Below, piece after piece: positions 44,586 through 58,494 of a stretch of DNA of 64,000 nucleotides. Position numbers and translations under genes: made by a program. Under the pieces are notes generated by a model, which was given only the letters and a program-made list of their open reading frames with translations, ran no database searches and was not told the origin of the DNA. Each line of letters starts with the position of its first letter. Positions within the stretch are counted from its first letter, which is position 1. Source of the stretch: an uncultured Litoreibacter sp. (GTDB taxonomy: Bacteria > Pseudomonadota > Alphaproteobacteria > Rhodobacterales > Rhodobacteraceae); assembly GCA_947501685.1 (NCBI GenBank), contig CANMWQ010000007.1, positions 124,001 to 188,000 of the forward strand. Direction: 5' to 3'.

Positions 44586-46805
44586 TCAGGCGGCCAGTTC
44601 GAACCGGTCCGCGTCCATCACCTTGGTCCAGGCCTTGGCGAAGTCTTTCACGAAATCCGCATGGGCGTCGTCGCAGGCATAGACCTCCGCCAGCGCGCGC
44701 AGTTGCGAGTTGGAGCCGAAGATCAGATCAACCGAAGTGCCGGTCCATTTGGTCTTGCCGCTGTCGCGATCCACCGCCTCGAACACGTCATCAGTGTCGG
44801 TCTCTTTCCACTCGACGCTCATATCCATGAGAGAGGAGAAGAAATCGGTGGTCAGCTGGCCCGGACGGGTGGTCAGAACGCCGTGTTTGGCCCCGCCCAC
44901 CGTGGCGTTGATGGCCCGCATGCCGCCGACCAGAACGGCCATTTCCGGCCCGGTGAGGCCCAATAGATGCGCGCGGTCTACCAGCATTTCGGCTTGTGTG
45001 CGGAAATGCGGTTTGCCCGCGCCCAGATAGTTGCGGAACCCGTCGGCGCGGGGTTCAAGCACGTCGAAGGAGGCAGCGTCCGTTTGCGCATCCGTGGCAT
45101 CGGTGCGGCCCGGCGTGAAGACCACGTCCACGGGCTGGCCCGCATCCTTGGCGGCCTGCTCCACCCCGGCGGTGCCCGCCAGAACGATCAGGTCAGCCAT
45201 GGAGACCTTCTTGCCCCCGGACGCCTTGCCGTTGAAATCGGCTTGCACCTTTTCCAGAGCGGCCAGCACGGTTTGCAGCTGCGCGGGCTGGTTGACCTCC
45301 CAATCCTTCTGGGGGGCCAAGCGGATGCGCGCGCCATTGGCACCGCCGCGACGGTCGGTCTGACGGTAGGTGGAGGCGGAGGCCCAAGCGGTCTCCACCA
45401 ACTGGTTGACCGGGATGCCTGCGCCGAGGATCTGCGCTTTCAGCGACTTGATATCCGCGTCGTCGATCAGCGGGTGATCCACCTCTGGCACCGGGTCCTG
45501 CCACAGCAGCGGCTCGGCAGGTTTCTCATCGCCCAGACCGCAAACATACGGCCCCATATCGCGGTGGGTGAGCTTGTACCAAGCCTTGGCGAAGGCCTCC
45601 GCGAATGCGTCCGGGTTGGCGTGGAAATGGCGGGAAATCTTCTCATAGGCCGGGTCCATGCGCATCGCCATATCAGCGGTGGTCATCATCAAAGGCACGG
45701 TGTCGCCGGAGCCGTCCACCTGCGGGGCGTGGTCCTTGCCCTCAAGGTCCTTGGCGGCCCAGATATGCGCGCCGGAGGGGGCTTTGGTCAGCTCCCACTC
45801 ATAGCCAAAGAGCACGTCGAAATAGCCCATATCCCATTGCGTCGGGTTGGGGGTCCAAGGGCCCTCAATGCCTGATGTGATGGCGTCCACGCCGCCGCCG
45901 CTCTTGTAGCTCGACAGCCAGCCCAGACCCTGCGCGGCGAGGCCTTCGCCCTCGGGCTCCGGGCCCACGTATTTGTCGGGATCCGCAGCCCCATGGCCTT
46001 TGCCGAATGTGTGGCCACCGGCAACAAGTGCGACGGTTTCTTCGTCATTCATCGCCATGCGGGCGAAGGTTTCGCGAATGTCGCGGCCGGAGGCCTGCGG
46101 GTCGGGATTGCCGTTCGGGCCTTCGGGGTTGACGTAGATCAGACCCATCTGCACAGCACCCAGAGGCTCGGCCAGCTCGCGGTCGCCGGAATAGCGCTCG
46201 TCTGCCATCCACTCGGACTCAGGGCCCCAATAGATGTCATCCTCAGGCTCCCACACATCGGCGCGACCACCCGCGAAGCCATAGGTGTCAAAGCCCATGG
46301 ATTCGAGCGCCACATTGCCGGTCAGGATCATCAGGTCGGCCCAAGACAGCTTGCGGCCATATTTCTGCTTGATCGGCCAGAGCAGACGGCGCGCCTTGTC
46401 GAGGTTGCCATTGTCCGGCCAGCTGTTCAAAGGCGCAAAACGCTGCGTGCCGGAGGTGCCGCCGCCGCGACCGTCATAGGTGCGGTAGGTGCCAGCGGAG
46501 TGCCACGCCATGCGGATGAAAAACGGGCCGTAATGGCCGTAATCGGCAGGCCACCAATCTTGGCTGTCGGTCATCAGCGCGGTCAGGTCGGCCTTGACGG
46601 CTTTCAGGTCCAGCGATTTGAACTCTTCGCCGTAGTCGAAATCCTCGCCCATCGGGTCGGTCTCGGGCGAGTTGTGTTTCAGGATGTTCAGATCAAGCGT
46701 GTTCGGCCACCACAGTTTGTTGCTCATCTTCTGGACGACGGCCGTGACCTCGCGCCCTCCCATCACTGGGCATTTCGCTGCATTATCTGTGGGGTTGCCG
46801 TCCAT
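44586..46805 (-). CDS. katG: Catalase-peroxidase KatG
   Basis: KatG destroys hydrogen peroxide and has peroxidase activity. The 739-aa heme protein has the distal site [13 protein letters not shown] with Arg98, Trp101 and His102 (Trp of the Met-Tyr-Trp crosslink), the proximal His in [15 protein letters not shown], and the duplicated C-terminal domain beginning [21 protein letters not shown] 46805 has AGGAGC in front; a longer frame to 47219 is an antisense shadow of oxyR. It is divergent from oxyR, the usual regulated pair. Confidence 0.97.
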
Positions 46806-46911: not shown

Positions 46912-47805
46912 ATGAACAGATTGACCCTGAAACAGTTCCGGTACTTCGAGGCCCTCGCGCAAATGGGCCATTTCGGGCATGCCGCAGAGGTCTGCGCGAT
47001 CTCGCAACCGGCTTTGTCCATGCAAATCAAAGAGCTGGAGACCATCCTCGGCAGAGTGCTCTTTGAGCGCGGCGCGCGGTCGGTGTCGCTGACCGCCTTT
47101 GGCGAAGAATTCGCGGTCCGTGCGCGCGACATTTTGCGAAGCGTGGACGAGCTGGAAGATTTGGCCCGCGCCCCGAAAGACGGGCTGAGTGGGCGGCTGC
47201 GGCTGGGTGTGATTCCCACGATTGCTCCCTATTTGCTGCCCGCCATCATAGGCCAGCTGAACAACGCCCATATCGGGCTGGACCTGCATGTGCGCGAGAC
47301 CCTCACCCCAACCCTGATCCAGGAGCTCACGGACGGGCGCATCGACGCGGCCATCGTGGCGCTGCCCGTCTCGGAGCCGTCGCTGGAAGAGGTCGCGCTG
47401 TTCAGCGAGGATTTCGTGCTGGTCCGCCCGCAATCGGACGGCGATCTGGCGGTGCCCAGCCCGGAAAAACTGCGTGAGATGAGGCTGTTGCTGCTGGAGG
47501 AGGGCCATTGCTTCCGCGACCAGGCGCTGTCCTTTTGCAATGCGGCGGCGGCCTCCCCGCGCGAGATGCTGGATGGCAGCTCCTTGTCGACTTTGGTGCA
47601 AATGGTGGGCGCGGGTATTGGCGTCACGCTGATCCCCAAAATGGCCGTCGGCGTGGAGACGCGCTCCGCGCCTGTGAGTGTCGCCACCTTTCCCGCACCT
47701 GGGCCCCAGCGGATGATTGGCATGGTCTGGCGCAAAACCAGCCCGTTAAAGGCGCAATTTGCGCAAGTCGCCGAAATCGTGAAAGGCTGCGCGCCTGTCG
47801 CCTAA
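46912..47805 (+). CDS. oxyR: LysR-type peroxide regulator OxyR
   Basis: A 297-aa LysR-family protein: N-terminal winged helix-turn-helix ([38 protein letters not shown]; quoted for residues 5-42 in outline) and a C-terminal effector domain. Redox Cys residues appear as [13 protein letters not shown] (about residues 199-208), the OxyR pair. Divergence from katG supports the name. It is 45 bases upstream of the dehalogenase gene on the same strand, so the two may be co-transcribed. Confidence 0.9.
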
Positions 47806-47850
47806 GCCCGGTTGCATTCCGGCCCGATCAACCGCAACTTGGCCTCTGAC

Positions 47851-50800
47851 ATGCGGCTCTTTTCCACCAAATCCCGTGCCCCCCATCTGGGCCCCTACCC
47901 CGTCGAGCGGCTGGCCCGCACGGAGGCACTGCCCTCCTTTGAGGACTGCCCGGCCTTTGAAGCACTCAGCTTTGAGCGCCCCGACGCGCCGCAAAACATC
48001 GTTAACGCGATGGGAGAGTATCAGGCGATGCTCGACACCATCCGCGACGGGATTGTGAACCCTGCCACGGCGGACTGCCCGAGCGATCCGGAAGAGCGTG
48101 CGCAGCATATAAAGGCCTTTGGATATTTCAGCGATGCCAGCATCGTGGGTATCTGCGACCTGCCCGACGCGGCCCGGCTCAAGACCCCCATTCGCAATCC
48201 CGGCATCGACGCTTTGGGCGCGGCGTTGCAAACCCGGCAGACCAAAACGCTGGCCTCGGGCATCGACATGATCATGGCAGGGCTGCGCGACAGCATGAGC
48301 GCCCCGCCGCGCGGGATCGAGGCGCACGCCCATGCGATTGTCTTTGCCTACGCCTACCCGCGCGACCCTTGGCCAGACGAGCCCGGCTTCGCGTGGATCA
48401 CTGACGCGCAGGCACAGCGCGCAGCCCTGCGCGCCAACGAGACCGCCTGCGTGATCGGCAACTACCTCCGCGTGTTGGGCTTTGCGGCGAAGTCGCATAG
48501 CGCCACGGCCAGCGACGTGGATTTGAACAGACTGGCGGTGGCCTCCGGGCTGGCGGTGGTGAAAAACGGCGCACTCGAGCACCCGCATCTGGGCACGGGC
48601 TTCGGGCTGGCCGCGATCACCACCAGTTTTGAGATGGCCTGCGACAGGCCCTTGGCTAAGACACAGCCGCGCGGGGCCAGCAAGGGGGCCTCCGCGATGA
48701 CGGGGCCGGGCTTTGCCAAGCGGCGCTACATGGACGGGGCGCACCCGTTTGAAAAGCTCAAACGCGTCAAGGAGCCCACGACCTATATTGACGAGCCCAA
48801 CGTTGCCCGCGTGCCCAAACGCACCGACATGTTCGCCCGCTCGCAATTTGGCGATATGGGCAAGGGCAACCAAAAGGCGGCGACGGGCGGGCATTACGCG
48901 GTGAAAGCAGCACCTTCGGCGGCGCAACGCCGCGCCTTGGGGGCGTTTGTGTTGTTGCAGGACGGCCCTGCGGAAGGCGCGCCCCAAAAGATGGACCCGG
49001 TGACGGCGGCCAAGCAGATCAAGGCGGCGGCGTATTTTATTGGGGCGGATGCGGTCGGCATTTCGCGCTGCCCGGATTGGGCCTGGTACAGCCATGACGC
49101 GCGGGGCGACGTGATTGACCCGCCGCATGATCAGGCGATCTCCATGATCATTGATCAGGGGTTTGAGACCATGGCGGGTTCCAGCGGCGATGATTGGATC
49201 GCGGTGGCGCAATCGATGCGGGCCTATCTGCGGTTCTCCCTGCTGGGGGGCGTGATTGCCAAACAGATCCGGCGGCTGGGCTATTCGGCCAAGGCGCATT
49301 CGGTGATGGATGGCGAGGTGTTGCAGCCGCCGCTCCTGCTGCTCAGCGGCTTGGGCGAGGTCAGCCGCATTGGCGAGGTGATCCTGAACCCTTACCTCGG
49401 GCCACGGCTAAAGTCCGGCGTGGTGACAACTGATTTGCCCTTGGCGCATGACGCGCCGATTGATTTCGGGCTGCAAAATTTCTGCGAAAGCTGCAACAAA
49501 TGCGCGCGCGAATGCCCCTCGGGCGCGATCACCGCCGGGCCGAAGCTGATGTTTAACGGCTACGAGATCTGGAAATCCGACAGCCAGAAATGCACCACCT
49601 ACCGGATTACCACGCCGGGCGGGGCCATGTGCGGGCGCTGCATGAAGACCTGCCCTTGGAATTTGGAAGGCATCTTTACGGAGGCCCCGTTTCGCTGGGC
49701 CGCGATGAACGTGCCGAAACTGGCCCCCGCACTGGCCAAGCTGGACGACATGGCCGGCAATGGCGGGCTGAACGAGGTGAAACGCTGGTGGTGGGATCTG
49801 GAGCTGCAAGAAGACGGCGCGTACCGGCCCACACAGCACGCGGTCAACCAGCGCGATTTGCAGCGTGATCTGGACCTGAAATACGAAGATCAAACGCTGG
49901 CGGTTTACCCTGCGCCACTGGCCCCGCACCCCTACCCCTACCCGTTCGCGATGGACCGCGAGGCAGGCATTGCCGCCTACGAGGCGATGATCCCCGCCGC
50001 TGAATACCGCCGCCGCATGAACGCGGGCGAAATGGACGGGCTGGTCCACCGCTACACCAATGACGCCGAGAGCCCGGTGATCCCGGTGGTGGTCAGCAAG
50101 GTGGAGCGGATGAGCGCCAATGTCACCAAATACGAGTTCCGCCGCGAGGATGGCGGCGACTTGCCCGCATGGCAGGCAGGGGCGCATCTGGACATCGTGG
50201 TGGCGCCTGAATTTCTGCGTCAATACTCCATGTCAGGCGACCCGGCGGACCGCTCTGTCTACCAGATCGGGGTGCTGCGGGAGGATGCGGGCCGGGGTGG
50301 CTCCAAACTGATGCACCGGATTTTCGACGAGGGGCGCAAAGTGTTCATCGCGCCGCCTTTGAACCATTTCCCGGTCGCCGAGGACGCCGCGCGGCATGTC
50401 TTGATGGGCGGCGGCATCGGTGTGACCCCGATGATCGCCATAGCCCATGAGCTGCACGCCAAGGGGGCGGAGTTTGCGCTGCATTATTCGGTGAGCAGCC
50501 GCGACAGCGCCGGGTTTTTGAAGGATTTGGCGCAAGCGCCATGGGCGGACCGGGTGCAGCTGCATGTGTCAAGCGAGGGCGCGCGCGCGGATCTGGGCGC
50601 TCTGCTGGCGAGCTACCGCGCGGGCGACCACGTCTATACCTGCGGCCCGGACCGCTTCATGGACGCGGTGATGGCGGCGGCGGAGGCGGCAGGTTTCCCC
50701 GAAGAAGCGCGCCATCTGGAATATTTCGCCCTGCCCGAGGTGCCCGACTGGGTGAACCATGATTTTGTGCTGAAGCTGGCCAAGTCGGGCAAAACGCTGA

Positions 50801-51024
50801 TGGTGCCCGCAGAGAAATCCGCCACGGATGTGCTGGCGGAGAATGGGATTGCGGTGGATGTGAAATGCTCCGACGGGATATGCGGCGTGTGCAAATGCGG
50901 GCTGATCTCCGGCGAGGTGGAGCACCGGGACTTTGTGCTCTCCAACAAGCAGCGTGAGGGCGAGGTGATCTTGTGCCAATCCCGCGCGGCCCAAAGGGGC
51001 GGCGTGATCGAGGTGGATTTGTAA
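47851..51024 (+). CDS. Self-sufficient reductive dehalogenase (RdhA-FNR-[2Fe-2S] fusion, BhbA/NpRdhA type)
   Basis: From ATG 47851 the product is 1057 aa with no Tat or Sec signal, so cytoplasmic. Residues about 60-540 form two halves of a cobalamin-binding RdhA core (ADAVGISRCPDWAWYSH; LGEVSRIGEVILNPYLGPRL). Two [4Fe-4S] sites follow: FCESCNKCARECPSG (Cys 545, 548, 551, 555) and Cys 581 with CGRCMKTCPW (594, 597, 601). Residues about 745-970 are a flavin/NAD(P)H reductase (FLRQYSMSG, LMGGGIGVTPMIA, YTCGPDRFMD). The end is a plant-type [2Fe-2S] ferredoxin (CSDGICGVCKCG, 1006/1011/1014, and Cys1042). Known BhbA and NpRdhA with this layout remove halogens from hydroxylated benzoates using NAD(P)H and B12. 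It follows oxyR by 45 bases; a TTG at 47812 is a weaker start. No membrane anchor RdhB is nearby. Confidence 0.9.
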   Translation: MRLFSTKSRAPHLGPYPVERLARTEALPSFEDCPAFEALSFERPDAPQNIVNAMGEYQAMLDTIRDGIVNPATADCPSDPEERAQHIKAFGYFSDASIVGICDLPDAARLKTPIRNPGIDALGAALQTRQTKTLASGIDMIMAGLRDSMSAPPRGIEAHAHAIVFAYAYPRDPWPDEPGFAWITDAQAQRAALRANETACVIGNYLRVLGFAAKSHSATASDVDLNRLAVASGLAVVKNGALEHPHLGTGFGLAAITTSFEMACDRPLAKTQPRGASKGASAMTGPGFAKRRYMDGAHPFEKLKRVKEPTTYIDEPNVARVPKRTDMFARSQFGDMGKGNQKAATGGHYAVKAAPSAAQRRALGAFVLLQDGPAEGAPQKMDPVTAAKQIKAAAYFIGADAVGISRCPDWAWYSHDARGDVIDPPHDQAISMIIDQGFETMAGSSGDDWIAVAQSMRAYLRFSLLGGVIAKQIRRLGYSAKAHSVMDGEVLQPPLLLLSGLGEVSRIGEVILNPYLGPRLKSGVVTTDLPLAHDAPIDFGLQNFCESCNKCARECPSGAITAGPKLMFNGYEIWKSDSQKCTTYRITTPGGAMCGRCMKTCPWNLEGIFTEAPFRWAAMNVPKLAPALAKLDDMAGNGGLNEVKRWWWDLELQEDGAYRPTQHAVNQRDLQRDLDLKYEDQTLAVYPAPLAPHPYPYPFAMDREAGIAAYEAMIPAAEYRRRMNAGEMDGLVHRYTNDAESPVIPVVVSKVERMSANVTKYEFRREDGGDLPAWQAGAHLDIVVAPEFLRQYSMSGDPADRSVYQIGVLREDAGRGGSKLMHRIFDEGRKVFIAPPLNHFPVAEDAARHVLMGGGIGVTPMIAIAHELHAKGAEFALHYSVSSRDSAGFLKDLAQAPWADRVQLHVSSEGARADLGALLASYRAGDHVYTCGPDRFMDAVMAAAEAAGFPEEARHLEYFALPEVPDWVNHDFVLKLAKSGKTLMVPAEKSATDVLAENGIAVDVKCSDGICGVCKCGLISGEVEHRDFVLSNKQREGEVILCQSRAAQRGGVIEVDL

Positions 51025-51254: not shown

Positions 51255-51983
51255 ATGGGATGCATGCCCGAAGATTCTCTAGAAAACGCCCGCAAGGGGC
51301 TCAGCTTGTATTTGCCAGAGGCAAAGCCACAGGCCAAAGCGGTGCCTGTGCAGACGATCGCGCTGACCGATCTGTTGCCCGCGCGGCCCTTCGATCCAGC
51401 GGCCACGGGGTTTGCGCTGGCCAGCCTGCCGCAGGGCCGCGAGGGGCCGGTGTTGTGGGTGCAGGACAGGGCGTCTCGGCAAGAAAACGGGCAGGTTTAC
51501 ATGCCCAGCCTGAAAGCGTTCGGCATCACCCGACCCGTGTTGCAGATCATGGTCAACCACCCGCGCGACGTGCTGTGGGCGATGGAGGAAGGGGCCGCGT
51601 GCAGCGCGCTCTCGGCGGTCATAGGGGAGGTTTACGGCGCGCCAAAGGTGCTCAGCTTCACCGCCACGAAACGGCTGGCGCTGCGCAGCGAGGCCTCGGG
51701 CGTGCCGGTCTTCATGATCCGGGCGGGCGATCCAGGCGGTCTAAGTGCGGCGCGGGCGCGGTGGCGCGTGGGCTCCCTGCCCTCGACGGCCAATCCCGAC
51801 AACCGCCAAGCGCCGGGTGCCGCGCGCTGGGACGCGGAGCTGTTTCGCGCGCGCGGGCGGGCTCCGGGGCGATGGGTGGCCACCTATGAGCGAGACGCGT
51901 CAAATAGTCTGCGTTTTCTTCCCCGCGCTGACGATGGAACGCTGGCGCAGGGTGATCAGCACCTATCGCACCGCGCCGGATGA
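51255..51983 (+). CDS. imuA: ImuA, RecA-like mutagenesis protein
   Basis: ImuA is the small RecA/SulA-like member of the imuA-imuB-dnaE2 damage-tolerance cassette; it lacks a full ATP site. The 242-aa protein has PVLWVQDRASRQENGQVYMP in the place of Walker A, then a central RecA-like strand region (RPVLQIMVNHPRDVLWAMEE, SFTATKRLALRSEASGVPVF) and RAGDPGGLSAARARWRVGSLPS. It starts right behind the LexA box. The 3' end overlaps imuB by 98 bases in another frame, more than is usual for an operon. Confidence 0.85.
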   Translation: MGCMPEDSLENARKGLSLYLPEAKPQAKAVPVQTIALTDLLPARPFDPAATGFALASLPQGREGPVLWVQDRASRQENGQVYMPSLKAFGITRPVLQIMVNHPRDVLWAMEEGAACSALSAVIGEVYGAPKVLSFTATKRLALRSEASGVPVFMIRAGDPGGLSAARARWRVGSLPSTANPDNRQAPGAARWDAELFRARGRAPGRWVATYERDASNSLRFLPRADDGTLAQGDQHLSHRAG

Positions 51984-53421
51984 GGCCCTGCCGGTGGTGC
52001 TGTCGCAAAGCGGCACCCATGGCCCGGTGATCTCTGCCCTGAACCAGACCGCCCGCGACCGGGGTATCAGCGCAGGCGACCGGGTGGTCGACGCGCAGGC
52101 CATTCACCCCGACCTGCATGTGGAACCTGCTGACCTGCGCGGCGACGAATTGCTGATGGACCGCCTGGTGCATTGGTCCCGGCGCTGGTGCCCATGGACG
52201 GCGCTGGACGGTGCGGCGGGGCTGGTGCTGGACGTGACCGGATCAGTGCATCTGTTTGGCGGAGCGGAGGCGCTGCTGCGCGACATCTGCCAGCGCTTTG
52301 CGATGCAGGGCCTCAGCGCGCGGGTGGCGATGACGCCCACGCGGGGGGCCGGGCGGGCCTTGTCGCGGTTTGGGCCTGCGGTCAGCCAATGCGGGCCGGA
52401 TGATGTGAGCGCCGCTTTGGCCCCGCTGCCTGTGTCGGCCTTGGGATTGAGCCCCGACACCGCGCGGCTGCTGCACCGGCTGGGGCTGAAAACCATCGGG
52501 GATCTGGCGCAGGTGCCGCGTGTCTCCATGATGCGGCGCTTTGCCAATCTGGCCGCCGCAGACAACCCGCTGATCTTGCTGGATCAGGCTTTGGGGCGCG
52601 TGGCGGAGCCGCTGAACGCGCCGCCTGACCCGCAGCATTTCATGGCCCGCGCCCGGCTGGCGGAGCCGGTGATGGACCCCACACCTTATATGGCCGCCCT
52701 CAGCGAGGATCTGTGCCGCGCGCTGGCCCAAGCCGAGCAAGGCGCGCGGCAGTTGCGGTTGACGATCTACCGCATCGACGGGGAGAGCGTGTCCGTCAGC
52801 CGGGCCACCGCGCGCGCCAGCCGCGACCCGGCGCATCTGGTGCGGCTCTTTGATGATCAACTGAGCAATGTCGATCCCGGTTTCGGTTTTGATCTGATCA
52901 CCCTTGAGGCCACCCGCGCGGAGCCCTTGGCCCGTGTGCAATCTGAGCTGGACGGCAAGCGCAATGCCGACGCCGATCTGGCGGGGCTGCTGGACCGGCT
53001 GACCGCGCGGCTGGGCAAGGAGCGGGTGAGCTGGCCTGTCTCCGAACAGACCCACAAGCCGGAGCGGGTGGCGGGGCGCGTGGCCGCATTGGAGCATCCT
53101 CCGGGTGAGGTGGTGAGCCTGCCGCGCGAGCGGCCCGTGCGGTTGCTGCACCCGGCCGAGGAGGTGCAGGTGATCTATGCGGTGCCGGAGGGGCCTCCGT
53201 CGCAGTTTCGCTGGCGGCGGGTGCTTTACAAAACCGCGCGGTTTGCAGGGCCGGAGCGCATTGCGCCTGAATGGTGGCGTGACCGCCCCGGCACAAGGCT
53301 GCGCGACTATTATAAGGTGGAGGTCGCCCATGGCGGGCGGTTCTGGCTCTACCGCGAGGGGCTGGACGGCGATCAGCGCGGCGGCCCCCCGCGCTGGTTT
53401 TTGCATGGGCTGTTCGCCTGA
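51886..53421 (+). CDS. imuB: ImuB, inactive Y-family polymerase
   Basis: ImuB is a Y-family-like protein without catalytic acidic residues that links DnaE2 to the beta clamp and ImuA. The 511-aa product keeps the fold (QIVCVFFPALTMERWRRVIS start; AGLVLDVTGSVHLFGGAEAL; KTIGDLAQVPRVSMMRRF), but the usual D-x-E motif is replaced, e.g. FPALTMERW. ATG 51886 overlaps the imuA end. Its stop overlaps the dnaE2 start (TGATG), so translation is coupled. Confidence 0.92.
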   Translation: MSETRQIVCVFFPALTMERWRRVISTYRTAPDEALPVVLSQSGTHGPVISALNQTARDRGISAGDRVVDAQAIHPDLHVEPADLRGDELLMDRLVHWSRRWCPWTALDGAAGLVLDVTGSVHLFGGAEALLRDICQRFAMQGLSARVAMTPTRGAGRALSRFGPAVSQCGPDDVSAALAPLPVSALGLSPDTARLLHRLGLKTIGDLAQVPRVSMMRRFANLAAADNPLILLDQALGRVAEPLNAPPDPQHFMARARLAEPVMDPTPYMAALSEDLCRALAQAEQGARQLRLTIYRIDGESVSVSRATARASRDPAHLVRLFDDQLSNVDPGFGFDLITLEATRAEPLARVQSELDGKRNADADLAGLLDRLTARLGKERVSWPVSEQTHKPERVAGRVAALEHPPGEVVSLPRERPVRLLHPAEEVQVIYAVPEGPPSQFRWRRVLYKTARFAGPERIAPEWWRDRPGTRLRDYYKVEVAHGGRFWLYREGLDGDQRGGPPRWFLHGLFA

Positions 53422-56400
53422 TGCCGCAGCAAGAAGGCCACGCCCGCCGGACCTTGGGCGACGAGAGCGCATTCAGATGGCACCCCAAATCGGACTATGT
53501 GGAGTTTGGCTTGGCGAGCTGTTTTTCCTTCCTGCGCGCGGCCTCGGATGCGGTGGATCTCTGCGCCACGGCCAACGTGCTGGGCTATGATTGCGCAGGG
53601 GTCGCCGATATCAACACGCTGGCGGGCGTGGTGCGGATGCACAGTGAGGCCGCGAAGGCCTGCATCCGGCCTCTGATCGGCTCCCGGCTGGTCCTGATCT
53701 GTGGCACCGAAATTCTGGCCTACCCGCAGGACCGCGCCGCCTATGCGCGGCTGTCCACGCTTCTGTCCAAGGGCAAGATGCAAACGGTGGAGGGCGATTG
53801 GCAGGACAAAGACCAGACCCACCTGACGCTGGACATGCTGGCCGCCCATAGCGAGCGCCTGCATCTGATCGTGATGCCGCCCCAGAATTTGGACAGCTTC
53901 GCCGCCGGTCTGCCTCGGCTCTGCAAGGCGCTGCCGGGGATGCGCTATGTCGGCGCGGCGTATCTCTATCGGGGCGATGACGTGGCGCGGATCAACCGGC
54001 TGGATAGGCTGGCGCGGGAACATGGGCTGGCGATCATGGCCACCAATGACGTGCTCTACCACGCGCCGGAGCGCCGCCCGTTGCAAGACATCATGGTCTG
54101 CATTCGTCATGGCACCACCGTGCCAAAGGCCGGGTTTCTGCTGGAGGCCAATGCGGAGCGGCACCTGAAACCGCCCACCGAGATGTGCCGCCTGTTTGCG
54201 CCCTGGCCCCACGCGATCAAAGCCACGCGGGCCTTGGCCGATGAGATTGAATTCGCGCTGAGCGATCTGAAATACGAATACCCCTCCGAGATCGTGCCCG
54301 ACGGGCGCAGCGCGCAGGAAGAGCTGGAGCGCCTGACCTGGGAGGGGGCCAAGACCCGCTACCCGGAGGGCACGCCGGAGCATGTGGTCAAGACGATTGA
54401 GAAGGAATTCGCGCTGATCCGCTCCAAGAAAATCGCGCGGTATTTTCTGACGATCTACGACATTGTCCGCTTTGCCCGCTACGAGGCCCAGCCGCCGATC
54501 CTGTGTCAGGGGCGCGGCTCTGCGGCCAATTCTGCGGTGTGTTTCTGCCTTGGCGTCACGTCGGTGGACCCCAACGAGCATGACGTGCTGTTTGAACGCT
54601 TCCTGAGTGAAGAGCGTGACGAGCCGCCTGATATTGACGTGGATTTCGAGCATGAGCGGCGCGAGGAGGTGATCCAGTATATGTATGCCAAATACGGGCG
54701 GCATCGCGCGGGGCTATGCGCCACCGTGATCCATTACCGCCCGCGTTCGGCAATCCGGGAGGTGGGTAAGGCGATGGGGTTGAGCGAGGATGTGACCTCG
54801 AAACTGGCGGGCACCGTCTGGGGCAGTTTCGAGGCGGAAGTGGCCGACGCGCGCGCAAAGGAAGCCGGGCTGGATCTGTCCGATCCCTATTTGCGCATGG
54901 TGCTAAAACTCGCGCGCCAGATGATCGGGATGCCCCGCCATCTCAGCCAGCATGTCGGCGGGTTTATCCTGACGGAGCGGCCTTTGACGGAGATCGTGCC
55001 GATTGGCAACGGCGCCATGCCGGAGCGCAGTTTTATTGAGTGGGACAAGGACGACATCGACGCGCTGGACATCTTCAAGGTCGATATTCTGGCGCTGGGC
55101 ATGCTGAGCTGCATCGCCAAATGCTTCGACCTGATCGAGGCGCATCACGGCGAGACGTTCGAGCTGGCCACCGTGCCTGCGGGTGACACCGCCACCTATG
55201 ACATGCTGTGCGAGGGCGACAGTCTGGGCGTGTTTCAGGTGGAAAGCCGGGCGCAGATGGCGATGCTGCCCAAGCTGCGGCCGCGCCAGTTTTATGATCT
55301 GGTGATCGAGGTCGCCATCGTGCGCCCCGGCCCCATTCAGGGCGACATGGTGCATCCCTATCTGCGCCGCCGCCAAGGGATGGAGACGGTGAACTACCCC
55401 GCCCCCGGCCCCACCCATCCGCAAGACGAGCTGCTGAAAATTCTGGGCCGCACGTTGGGCGTGCCGATCTTTCAGGAACAGGCCATGAAGATCGCGATTG
55501 ATGCCGCCAAATTCTCACCCAAAGAGGCCAATGAGCTGCGCAAGGCGATGGCGACGTTTCGGTCTCGTGGCACGATTGAGAAGCTGCAGGAAAAGATGGT
55601 CGGCCGCATGACCGCGCGCGGCTATGACCCGGTCTTTGCGGAGCGGTGCTTTAACCAGATCAAGGGCTTTGGCGAATACGGCTTTCCCGAAAGCCATGCG
55701 GCGAGTTTTGCCAAGCTGGTTTACGTGTCGAGCTGGATGAAATGCCACTACCCGGCGGCTTTTGCCTGCGCGCTGCTGAACTCCCAGCCGATGGGCTTCT
55801 ACGCCCCTGCGCAAATCGTGCGCTGCGCGCGGGATCATGGCGTGGAGGTGCGGGCGGTGGATGTGAATTACTCCGACTGGGATTGCACGCTCGAGCCTTG
55901 CGGCGGCGGCTTCGCCCTGCGCCTTGGCCTGCGGCAGGTAGACGGGATGCAGCGGGAGGCGGGGTTGCGGGTGATGGCCGCGCGCGATGCGCCATTCTCC
56001 GATCTGGCGGATCTGAAAACCCGCGCGCGGCTGGATGCAGGCGCGGTGCGGCGGCTGGCGGCGGCGGATGCGCTCCGCTCTATGGGGTTGGACCGGCGTC
56101 AGGCGCTGTGGCAGTCGCAGACGCTGAAAGACGCCCCCGCCCTGCCGATCTTTGAGCATGCCGAGGCCAGCGCTTATGGCCCCGAGCCGGACGTCGCCCT
56201 GCCCGCCATGCCCCGCGCCGAACATGTGGTGGCCGATTACCAGACGCTGCGCCTGTCGCTGAAGGCGCACCCGATGCAGTTTTATCGCCAGAGCCTGCGC
56301 TCTCAGGGGTTTTCAGCCTCCAGCGACTTGGCGCGCATGCGGCATGGGCAACCTGTGTCGCTGGCCGGGCTGGTGTTGGTGCGCCAGAAACCCGGCAGCG

Positions 56401-56741
56401 CCAAGGGCGTGTGTTTCATCACGCTGGAGGATGAAAGCGGGGTCGCCAATCTGGTGATCTGGCCCACGCTGTTCGAGGCCTATCGCCCGGTGATCATGGC
56501 CGCGAGGCTGCTGGTCGTGCACGGTCAGGTGCAAACCGATGGCAAGGTCATTCATGTGGTGGCCAACCGTCTGGAGGATCGCAGCGATCGGCTGGCGGGG
56601 CTGTCTGATATCTCCCTGCCGGGGATCACCACGCGCGGCGACCATCCGACGCATCCACTGCCGAGCCAGGTCGGAGGCCAAGCGGGCCGCACCCATCCGC
56701 GCAATGTCCGGGTGATCCCAAAATCGCGGGATTTTCATTAA
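53421..56741 (+). CDS. dnaE2: Error-prone DNA polymerase DnaE2
   Basis: DnaE2 is the C-family translesion polymerase of the SOS mutagenesis cassette. The 1106-aa protein has an N-terminal PHP domain (YVEFGLASCFSFLRAASDAV), the palm with catalytic acids in PPDIDVDFEHERREEVIQY, the fingers region (SQHVGGFILTERPL), helix-hairpin-helix region and C-terminal OB-fold (VSLAGLVLVRQKPGSAKGVC). The start overlaps the imuB stop. It is the last gene controlled by the LexA box. Confidence 0.95.
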   Translation: MPQQEGHARRTLGDESAFRWHPKSDYVEFGLASCFSFLRAASDAVDLCATANVLGYDCAGVADINTLAGVVRMHSEAAKACIRPLIGSRLVLICGTEILAYPQDRAAYARLSTLLSKGKMQTVEGDWQDKDQTHLTLDMLAAHSERLHLIVMPPQNLDSFAAGLPRLCKALPGMRYVGAAYLYRGDDVARINRLDRLAREHGLAIMATNDVLYHAPERRPLQDIMVCIRHGTTVPKAGFLLEANAERHLKPPTEMCRLFAPWPHAIKATRALADEIEFALSDLKYEYPSEIVPDGRSAQEELERLTWEGAKTRYPEGTPEHVVKTIEKEFALIRSKKIARYFLTIYDIVRFARYEAQPPILCQGRGSAANSAVCFCLGVTSVDPNEHDVLFERFLSEERDEPPDIDVDFEHERREEVIQYMYAKYGRHRAGLCATVIHYRPRSAIREVGKAMGLSEDVTSKLAGTVWGSFEAEVADARAKEAGLDLSDPYLRMVLKLARQMIGMPRHLSQHVGGFILTERPLTEIVPIGNGAMPERSFIEWDKDDIDALDIFKVDILALGMLSCIAKCFDLIEAHHGETFELATVPAGDTATYDMLCEGDSLGVFQVESRAQMAMLPKLRPRQFYDLVIEVAIVRPGPIQGDMVHPYLRRRQGMETVNYPAPGPTHPQDELLKILGRTLGVPIFQEQAMKIAIDAAKFSPKEANELRKAMATFRSRGTIEKLQEKMVGRMTARGYDPVFAERCFNQIKGFGEYGFPESHAASFAKLVYVSSWMKCHYPAAFACALLNSQPMGFYAPAQIVRCARDHGVEVRAVDVNYSDWDCTLEPCGGGFALRLGLRQVDGMQREAGLRVMAARDAPFSDLADLKTRARLDAGAVRRLAAADALRSMGLDRRQALWQSQTLKDAPALPIFEHAEASAYGPEPDVALPAMPRAEHVVADYQTLRLSLKAHPMQFYRQSLRSQGFSASSDLARMRHGQPVSLAGLVLVRQKPGSAKGVCFITLEDESGVANLVIWPTLFEAYRPVIMAARLLVVHGQVQTDGKVIHVVANRLEDRSDRLAGLSDISLPGITTRGDHPTHPLPSQVGGQAGRTHPRNVRVIPKSRDFH

Positions 56742-56838: not shown

Positions 56839-58494
56839 ATGAAGGTAATCATTCACAAAATGGCGCATCGCAGCTTGATGCTCAGCGCGCTTGCGCTGGC
56901 CGTCTTGTGCCTGCTGCCGCATCTGGGCGTGCTGATCGCAGCGCTCACCGGCACCTCGGAGACGCTGCGCCACCTGATCAATACTGTTTTGGCGGGGTAT
57001 ACGTGGACCACTGCCGTTCTGGTCGTGTTGGTGGGGCTTGGCACCTGCGCCGTGGGCACAGGCGCGGCGTGGCTGGTCACGATGACCGAGTTTCCGGGCC
57101 GCCGCTGGATCGAGATCGCGCTGGTGATCCCGTTGGCCTTCCCGGCCTATGTTCTGGCCTACGCCTACACCCACCTGCTGGACCACCCCGGCATTGTGCA
57201 ATCCACCCTGCGCGCCGTGATGGGATATGGACCACGGGACTACTGGTTCCCCGAGATCCGCTCGCTGGGAGGGGCCGCAATCATGCTGATCCTCGTGCTC
57301 TACCCCTATGTCTACCTGCTGGCCCGCACCGCATTTCTAGGGCAAAGCGCGACTGTATTTCACGCGGCACGCTCCTTGGGCAAAACCCCGATGCAGGCTT
57401 TCTGGCTTGTGTCGCTGCCCATGGCGCGCCCCGCAATTGCCGCCGGAGTGCTGCTGACTGCGATGGAGACCATCGCGGATTTTGGCACGGTGTCCTATTT
57501 CTCTGTCCAGACCTTTGCGACGGGTATCTACACAAGCTGGTTCTCAATGGGGGACCGGGCAGCCGCAGCACAGCTGTCGCTGGGACTGCTGGCCTTCGCG
57601 CTGCTTCTTGCCTTCATGGAGCGGTTCACCCGAGGCAACGCCCGCTACGCGGCGGCCAAGGCGAAAACACCACTGGAGCGGACCTTGCTGAGCGGCGGAC
57701 AAGCGTGGGGCGCTGTCGCCCTGTGCCTTCTGCCCGTGCTGCTGGGAGTTGTGATACCAACGATTGCCTTGATCGTGATGGGCATAGGCTCGGAACAAAA
57801 CCTGCTGAGCACGCGCTATCTGAAGTTCATCTCCAACACGGTGACGCTGGCGCTGATTGCCTCCGGGCTGACCGTACTGGCCGCTATTGTACTGGGCGCG
57901 TTTCAGCGAAGTTTCGGCGGCAAGCTGTCGGAGGCCTCGCTTTACGTGGCACGGTTGGGCTATGCGGTGCCGGGCGGGGTGATCGCGGTGGGGCTGCTGG
58001 TGCCTTTCGCGGCTTTCGACAACGCGCTCGACACCTATATGCGGGCCAATTTCGACATCTCCACGGGGCTGCTCTTCACCGGATCAATCTGGCTGCTGGT
58101 CGGCGCCTATATGATCCGGTTTTTGGCCGCAGCCCTCGGGGCCTATGAGGGCGGGGTCTCCACCATCACCACCAACATGGACTCCGCTGCGCGCGTATTG
58201 GGCAAAGGGGTGTGGGGCGTCATCGGCCGGGTGCATCTTCCGATCCTGACGCCAAGCCTGCTGACGGCGGCGCTGATCGTCTTTGTCGACGTGATGAAAG
58301 AGCTGCCAGCGACACTGATCATGCGGCCCTTCAATTACGACACATTGGCCGTTCAGGCCTTCCGATTGGCGGCGGATGAGCGCCTTGAGGGTGCCGCGGT
58401 GCCAAGTCTGGTGATTGCTGGGATCGGGCTTTTGCCGGTGATCCTGCTGTGTCGTAAGGTCGGCAAGGACGCCGCGAAACTTAACAGCGGGTAA
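56839..58494 (+). CDS. fbpB: Iron(III) ABC transporter permease (FbpB-like)
   Basis: A 551-aa fused two-domain permease with about twelve hydrophobic segments. Both halves carry the EAA-type loop that contacts the ATPase (ARSLGKTPMQAFWLVSLPMA around residue 175; ARVLGKGVWGVIGRVHLPIL around 450). This duplicated structure is typical of FbpB/SfuB iron permeases. The binding protein gene lies downstream in opposite orientation and no ATPase gene is present here. AAGGAAACTGCGC lies before the start region. Confidence 0.87.
   Translation: MKVIIHKMAHRSLMLSALALAVLCLLPHLGVLIAALTGTSETLRHLINTVLAGYTWTTAVLVVLVGLGTCAVGTGAAWLVTMTEFPGRRWIEIALVIPLAFPAYVLAYAYTHLLDHPGIVQSTLRAVMGYGPRDYWFPEIRSLGGAAIMLILVLYPYVYLLARTAFLGQSATVFHAARSLGKTPMQAFWLVSLPMARPAIAAGVLLTAMETIADFGTVSYFSVQTFATGIYTSWFSMGDRAAAAQLSLGLLAFALLLAFMERFTRGNARYAAAKAKTPLERTLLSGGQAWGAVALCLLPVLLGVVIPTIALIVMGIGSEQNLLSTRYLKFISNTVTLALIASGLTVLAAIVLGAFQRSFGGKLSEASLYVARLGYAVPGGVIAVGLLVPFAAFDNALDTYMRANFDISTGLLFTGSIWLLVGAYMIRFLAAALGAYEGGVSTITTNMDSAARVLGKGVWGVIGRVHLPILTPSLLTAALIVFVDVMKELPATLIMRPFNYDTLAVQAFRLAADERLEGAAVPSLVIAGIGLLPVILLCRKVGKDAAKLNSG

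Follow-up and report, generated by a model that had tools for sequence, protein, structure and literature searches.

A predicted reductase-fused catabolic reductive dehalogenase encoded behind an oxyR-like gene in a marine-type alphaproteobacterium

What does an apparently aerobic, marine-type alphaproteobacterium do with a cobalamin-dependent reductive dehalogenase (RdhA) that carries its own reductase? The question is raised by rdhA, a gene for a 1057-residue protein in a 64,000-nucleotide stretch (the window; positions 124,001 to 188,000 of contig CANMWQ010000007.1) from an uncultured Litoreibacter sp. of the Rhodobacteraceae (assembly GCA_947501685.1; 3.32 Mb, 16 contigs, 98.99% complete). 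Based on domain models, alignments and a predicted structure, we conclude that the gene product is very probably a catabolic reductive dehalogenase of the BhbA/JtRdhA type, self-sufficient and located in the cytoplasm. Its activity, substrate, halogen preference, electron path and location, and its role in either carbon use or detoxification, are what we infer from the sequence in the paragraphs that follow.

A first-pass annotation had read the frame as a single polypeptide joining an RdhA core, a flavin/NAD(P)H reductase and a [2Fe-2S] ferredoxin, and the comparisons bore this out. Among the sequences of solved structures, the top match was NpRdhA (4ras), which covered residues 1-105 and 158-724 (E 7.6e-156), and a phthalate dioxygenase reductase (PDR; 2pia) matched residues 744-1049 (E 3.5e-50). 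The C-terminal part also matched the reductase portion of fused P450s (6kbh, 6laa). The TIGR02486 'reductive dehalogenase' (RDH) model scored 200.9 bits against a cut-off of 160.35, and the Pfam models Fer4_7, Fer4_16, Fer4 and Fer2 were all above their cut-offs. A separate, weak RDH match (33.7 bits; G000:C7:172085-172654) fell in the N-terminal part of the protein, which is predicted to be a vestigial domain: it aligns with NpRdhA from residue 1, and the fold match extends over about 750 columns. In most of 80 relatives the match to the protein starts at its residue 1 or 2, which favors the ATG at 47851 over an upstream TTG at 47812. The features are listed in Table 1, where the allocation of individual cysteines to the [4Fe-4S] clusters is a putative one drawn from family motifs.

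Table 1. Predicted features of rdhA and its upstream neighborhood (positions within the window).
Feature	Coordinates	Strand	Basis
rdhA, ATG to stop; predicted self-sufficient (reductase-fused) catabolic reductive dehalogenase, 1057 aa	47851..51024	+	sequence, domain models, fold match
Residues 1-340, putative counterpart of the NpRdhA vestigial duplicated cobalamin-fold domain	47851..48870	+	NpRdhA N-terminal alignment; weak RDH match
Residues ~380-540, predicted working cobalamin-binding core with Tyr459 (codon 49225-49227) and Lys521 (49411-49413)	48988..49470	+	sequence match, alignment, NpRdhA residue mapping
Residues ~541-610, two predicted [4Fe-4S] sites, Cys545/548/551/555/581/594/597/601, and Arg585 (49603-49605)	49471..49680	+	Pfam, alignment
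Residues ~744-960, predicted flavin- and NAD(P)H-binding reductase module, PDR type	50080..50730	+	sequence, model and fold matches
Residues ~970-1057, predicted plant-type [2Fe-2S] ferredoxin, Cys1006/1011/1014/1042	50758..51021	+	Fer2 E 1.2e-9; Cys conservation
oxyR-like LysR regulator gene directly upstream of rdhA	46912..47805	+	best NCBIfam model OxyR; LysR Pfam domains
Spacer, oxyR-like stop to rdhA start, 45 bp	47806..47850	+	sequence
katG, catalase-peroxidase, divergent from the oxyR-like gene	44586..46805	-	TIGR00198 1062.9 bits, cut-off 770.25

The key residues of NpRdhA, Y426, K488 and R552 (PMC10463259, cited here, like PMC13101508 and PMC12016517, from part of its text), align with Y459, K521 and R585 of the window's protein. 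All three are invariant in the 103 rows of an alignment made up of the window, 80 named loci, 17 loci of the genus and five plasmid loci (102 distinct rows, as L003 and L143 are the same contig). The Tyr/Lys pair, on whose presence the annotation had staked its reading, is therefore retained throughout, and the cluster cysteines, eight in the [4Fe-4S] region and four in the [2Fe-2S] region, likewise show no variation in 103/103 rows. Together with the domains, the invariant Tyr/Lys/Arg set supports the earlier view of an NAD(P)H-driven, self-sufficient and probably cytoplasmic enzyme.

Structure prediction and search, proposed earlier as a check, pointed the same way. An AlphaFold2 model built from 33 aligned rows (mean predicted local distance difference test score, pLDDT, 71.4; predicted template modeling score, pTM, 0.62) had NpRdhA chains as its first 14 fold matches, with template modeling scores (TM-scores) on the target of 0.78-0.80 and 38-39% identity, the best of them at 0.80 and 39%. 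Fused P450s and phthalate dioxygenase reductase came next. The pLDDT falls below 50 in the Fe-S region and in part of the core, and model confidence is moderate overall, so the fold is supported but its fine details are not.

The RdhA architecture, taken with published work on NpRdhA and JtRdhA, suggests how the enzyme would operate. NAD(P)H would reduce the flavin of the C-terminal module, from which electrons would reach cobalamin by way of the [2Fe-2S] cluster and then the two [4Fe-4S] clusters. The cobalt, once reduced, and a proton from Tyr459, with Lys521 and Arg585 assisting, would then remove a halide, most probably bromide or iodide, from a phenol halogenated in the ortho position. 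The phenol freed of its halogen, for example 4-hydroxybenzoate, could enter the pobA/protocatechuate 3,4-dioxygenase route of the same genome. Removal of bromine or chlorine had been proposed at first; the bromine half stands by likeness to JtRdhA, whereas chlorine is doubtful because chlorophenols act only as competitive inhibitors of JtRdhA and lose no chlorine (PMC10463259).

Genes for B12 synthesis and for aromatic ring cleavage, which the annotation had suggested looking for elsewhere in the genome, were both found. The cobaltochelatase subunits CobN and CobS score 1610 and 178 bits. A cluster on contig 2 holds pobA (668 bits), pcaC, pcaH, pcaG and a gene for 3-oxoadipate:acetyl-CoA acetyltransferase, all above their NCBIfam cut-offs, so that an onward path exists for debrominated 4-hydroxybenzoate; as the cluster is unlinked to rdhA on the map, the pathway is permitted rather than proven. 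Additionally, the CobN model matched a 1218-aa frame (G000:C2:42232-45207) in two pieces below the cut-off (289 and 255 bits); judged by size and homology, this may be a subunit of the magnesium chelatase that serves bacteriochlorophyll synthesis. The fused rdhA of the window is the single RDH match over the cut-off in this genome, the other matches at E <= 0.001 being its own N-terminal part and the epoxyqueuosine reductase QueG (33.2 bits).

Several points weigh against assignment to this class and pathway. The closest tested fusion among the proteins compared, BhbA, is only 50% identical, and JtRdhA was compared by description only. Unlike bhbA or the copy in Nitratireductor sp. OM-1, the window's rdhA does not lie among genes for aromatic degradation, and pobA and the pca genes are on a different contig. 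BluB, which bears on the source of the cobamide lower ligand, was not found over the cut-off in the genome (22.9 of 150 bits at G000:C6:104855-105319). Finally, a short marine RdhA, Ros_A3X954, lost its activity upon exposure to oxygen (PMC13101508), and oxygen tolerance should therefore not be assumed for the window's enzyme.

The gene is not an unusual find. The class has been described in marine alphaproteobacteria, with homologues named in Jhaorihella, Ruegeria pomeroyi, Pseudovibrio and Tropicibacter and the genera Jhaorihella, Ruegeria and Pseudovibrio in the tree legend (PMC10463259), and 149 of the 394 family genomes pass the RDH cut-off, fused and short RdhA proteins counted together, versus 0/14 control genomes. 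The core and reductase share one frame in all of the best 30 loci of the family survey, and some further family matches lie in short frames (391-480 aa, for example). The genome collection holds at least 589 relatives, since 589 of 594 pattern-matching stretches among the matches listed encode one. Within the genus, 19 of 21 genomes, including that of the window, have a match at E <= 1e-60, and the other 18 proteins are 63-91% identical to the window's. Relatives at the same threshold are carried by eight of 72,556 plasmid records, including pBHB, the plasmid of BhbA.

The gene tree does not follow the genus. In a tree of 102 rows, which included 18 rows from the 19 genus genomes with a match (the incomplete copy of G401 was left out), the genus rows fell in four places: 13 made up a deep clade by themselves, the window grouped with L142 and L143, and two further rows, L127 and L128, were each found among other genera. 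A mixture-model tree of 33 rows, with 12 of the 18 genus rows, again placed the genus in four positions. Forcing these 12 rows together costs 278 log-likelihood units (approximately unbiased test, p 5.5e-115), the group tested being the taxonomic genus and the test having followed sight of the first tree. As the genus genes are not one clade, rdhA was probably moved or replaced. Horizontal transfer with replacement would be the simplest reading of the pattern, old duplication with loss being the alternative.

The annotation had also described rdhA as a single isolated gene. This needs correction: an oxyR-like regulator gene ends 45 bp ahead of it on the same strand, and katG diverges from that gene (Table 1). 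The best NCBIfam model for the regulator is OxyR, at 232.7 bits against a cut-off of 329, and the protein has a cysteine pair that we take to resemble the redox pair of OxyR. A regulator match at E <= 1e-70 occurs in 18 of 21 genomes of the genus. In all 18 of these loci katG adjoins oxyR, and in three of them (the window, G410 and G404) rdhA lies behind oxyR, each time with a spacer of 45 bp. Among the 80 named relatives, the katG and regulator arrangement was seen only in L003, which is the contig of G404 read on the opposite strand; since at least 1500 bases upstream of rdhA are available in 74 of these 80 loci, its absence from the others is mostly real. The oxyR-rdhA arrangement is a feature of one small clade, and this placement is the only unusual point of the locus, a lineage-specific detail.

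Downstream of the window's rdhA, a cassette at positions 51255-56741 separates it from an ATP-binding cassette (ABC) permease gene, which lies at 56839. The cassette comprises dnaE2, for an error-prone polymerase (1375 bits), together with an imuB-like gene and, at the imuA position, an unnamed frame. The unnamed frame and the imuB-like gene also have relatives downstream of rdhA in G410 (L113). In L003/G404 the permease gene directly follows rdhA, which indicates a gain or a loss of the cassette during the history of this clade.

Could the upstream neighbors mean that rdhA was recruited into the stress response of this clade? It would then be transcribed together with the oxyR-like gene, raised by peroxide, and used to remove bromophenols formed by haloperoxidases that consume H2O2. 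The co-directional 45-bp spacer, in which no terminator-like site was found, fits this proposal, as do the retention of the arrangement and of the spacer length in three genomes with RdhA 89-91% identical to the window's, and the presence of katG beside oxyR throughout the genus loci. Promoter-like and terminator-like sites occur in about the same number as in shuffled sequences. On the other hand, rdhA occupies this place in only three of the 18 loci, and the three genomes are close relatives, so that conservation may be mere inheritance. Elsewhere rdhA stands next to other regulators (LysR, MarR, GntR), the window's regulator scores below the OxyR cut-off, and closeness alone does not show co-regulation. 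We regard such recruitment as unlikely. The fuller version, in which a horizontally acquired self-sufficient debrominase would have entered the peroxide regulon of one clade, read through from oxyR and raised by H2O2 along with katG, and would clear bromophenols generated from bromide by haloperoxidases and peroxide, is equally unlikely. If true, it would tie halogen removal to oxidative-stress defense. The position behind oxyR thus gives one idea, open to test, about when rdhA is used. No paper on rdhA beside oxyR was found: oxyR and katG are absent from the main text of PMC10463259 and PMC13101508, and in the available text of PMC12016517, one of three papers that contain both 'reductive dehalogenase' and 'OxyR', the two terms occur in the reference list only.

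Gene contexts among the relatives bear on the substrate. A conserved neighborhood that would name a substrate was sought in the 80 named loci, and the largest neighbor family besides rdhA reached 16 of 80, with 15 each for the next four; members of the largest shared families are mostly from Ruegeria loci. An upstream gene lies within 700 bp of rdhA in 78 of 102 loci, as judged with a rough codon-usage gene picker that gets some frames wrong. Ten of these 78 genes could be named: DctM, LysR, GMC oxidoreductase, short-chain dehydrogenase, FAD-binding monooxygenase type, sulfatase, LamB/YcsF, MarR, GntR and DctP. Neighbors that vary in this way, and surroundings that point to no pathway, would also fit an enzyme whose main substrate is a non-halogenated or unexpected natural compound and which dehalogenates only incidentally. 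We consider this quite improbable, as the active-site Tyr/Lys/Arg are the same as in NpRdhA and ortho-halophenols are the substrates of the catabolic members characterized so far (PMC10463259). Contexts this scattered, and a gene tree at odds with the genus, suggest that rdhA is a mobile trait carried by a single gene.

Two of these contexts can be described separately. Many of the Ruegeria loci have a LysR gene that diverges from rdhA at a distance of about 80 bp (15/80, and also L026:9019-9921); its product is a candidate for a dedicated rdhA regulator. On plasmid pOM-1 of Nitratireductor sp. OM-1 (L163:4371-13783), an rdhA fusion of 51% identity lies near pobA, an extradiol dioxygenase gene and an aldehyde dehydrogenase gene, and we infer that this cluster serves halogenated hydroxybenzoates.

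A respiratory, energy-conserving role is very improbable. The window's protein does share its core family with PceA (4uqu; residues 450-649, E 3.3e-31). However, no twin-arginine translocation (Tat) motif was seen at its N-terminus on inspection by eye, and its neighbors are the oxyR-like gene and the unnamed frame, with no rdhB-like gene among the genes adjoining rdhA (a search of the genome with an RdhB model was not made), in agreement with the earlier claim that an RdhB anchor is lacking. Furthermore, it has a fused NAD(P)H module and an additional N-terminal domain, and these traits fit the catabolic class of PMC10463259. The remaining proposal, that the protein is a QueG (the second kind of class III cobalamin enzyme) to which a reductase has been added, is scarcely credible: the QueG model TIGR00276 does match residues 479-566 as a distant homologue, but at only 26.3 bits against a cut-off of 200, whereas the RDH model passes, the NpRdhA catalytic residues are present, and a separate QueG is encoded elsewhere in the genome (C2:235042, 435 bits), so that the search did not place the protein with epoxyqueuosine reductases, the outcome that the annotation had named as decisive against itself.

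Taken together, the results support the reading as a catabolic, self-sufficient dehalogenase, and the window's protein is a complete and clear addition to the self-sufficient debrominases in a family where RdhA genes are common. B12-dependent debromination in aerobic marine-type bacteria is thereby a plausible background activity and not a pollutant-specific curiosity. Publications already cover this class of enzyme, its occurrence in marine alphaproteobacteria and the way it works; the window's protein is a new member of it. A literature search gave nothing closer than PMC10463259 and PMC13101508.

The latter describes Ros_A3X954 of Roseobacter sp. MED193, a marine roseobacter enzyme of the RdhA family that debrominates 2,6-dibromophenol. 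Within MED193 it is the second RdhA, a short one, whereas the one RdhA over the cut-off in the window's genome is fused. The two Fe-S motifs published for Ros_A3X954 occur in L158, a frame separate from the fused MED193 homologue L018 (70% identity to the window's protein), and together with a genome search they rule out L018 as the tested enzyme. As the tested enzyme is thus a short RdhA, we dropped it as support for the window's fused protein. MED193 also has the fused L018, of which no test was found in the available text of PMC13101508.

The first-pass annotation had likened the layout to both BhbA and NpRdhA. The likeness to NpRdhA of Nitratireductor pacificus (4ras, 6zxu, 6zxx, 6zy0, 6zy1) holds for the RdhA part and the catalytic residues, at 38-39% identity in structural alignments, but not for the reductase and ferredoxin. 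NpRdhA has no such fusion, as its match stops at query residue 724 and PMC10463259 describes it in this way, with an N-terminal domain that is a vestigial duplicated cobalamin fold; catabolic RdhA proteins occur with and without the PDR domain (PMC10463259). The likeness to BhbA (Comamonas sp. 7D-2, plasmid pBHB, NC_021077; L162) extends over the full-length architecture, at 50% identity. The bhbA gene sits on a conjugative plasmid, close to insertion sequences and downstream of genes for protocatechuate 4,5-dioxygenase, whereas the window's gene stands behind an oxyR-like gene and has its 3,4-type ring-cleavage cluster on another contig. Finally, JtRdhA of Jhaorihella thermophila (WP_104007082) shares by description the whole layout of the window's protein, with a duplicated cobalamin domain, two [4Fe-4S] clusters and a fused PDR module. 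It comes from a marine bacterium, lacks a Tat signal (in the window's protein no Tat motif was seen by eye) and has the key Tyr, Lys and Arg that the window's protein keeps (PMC10463259). The activity of JtRdhA has been measured: it debrominates and deiodinates ortho-halophenols with NADPH at 1:1, with and without O2 (PMC10463259).

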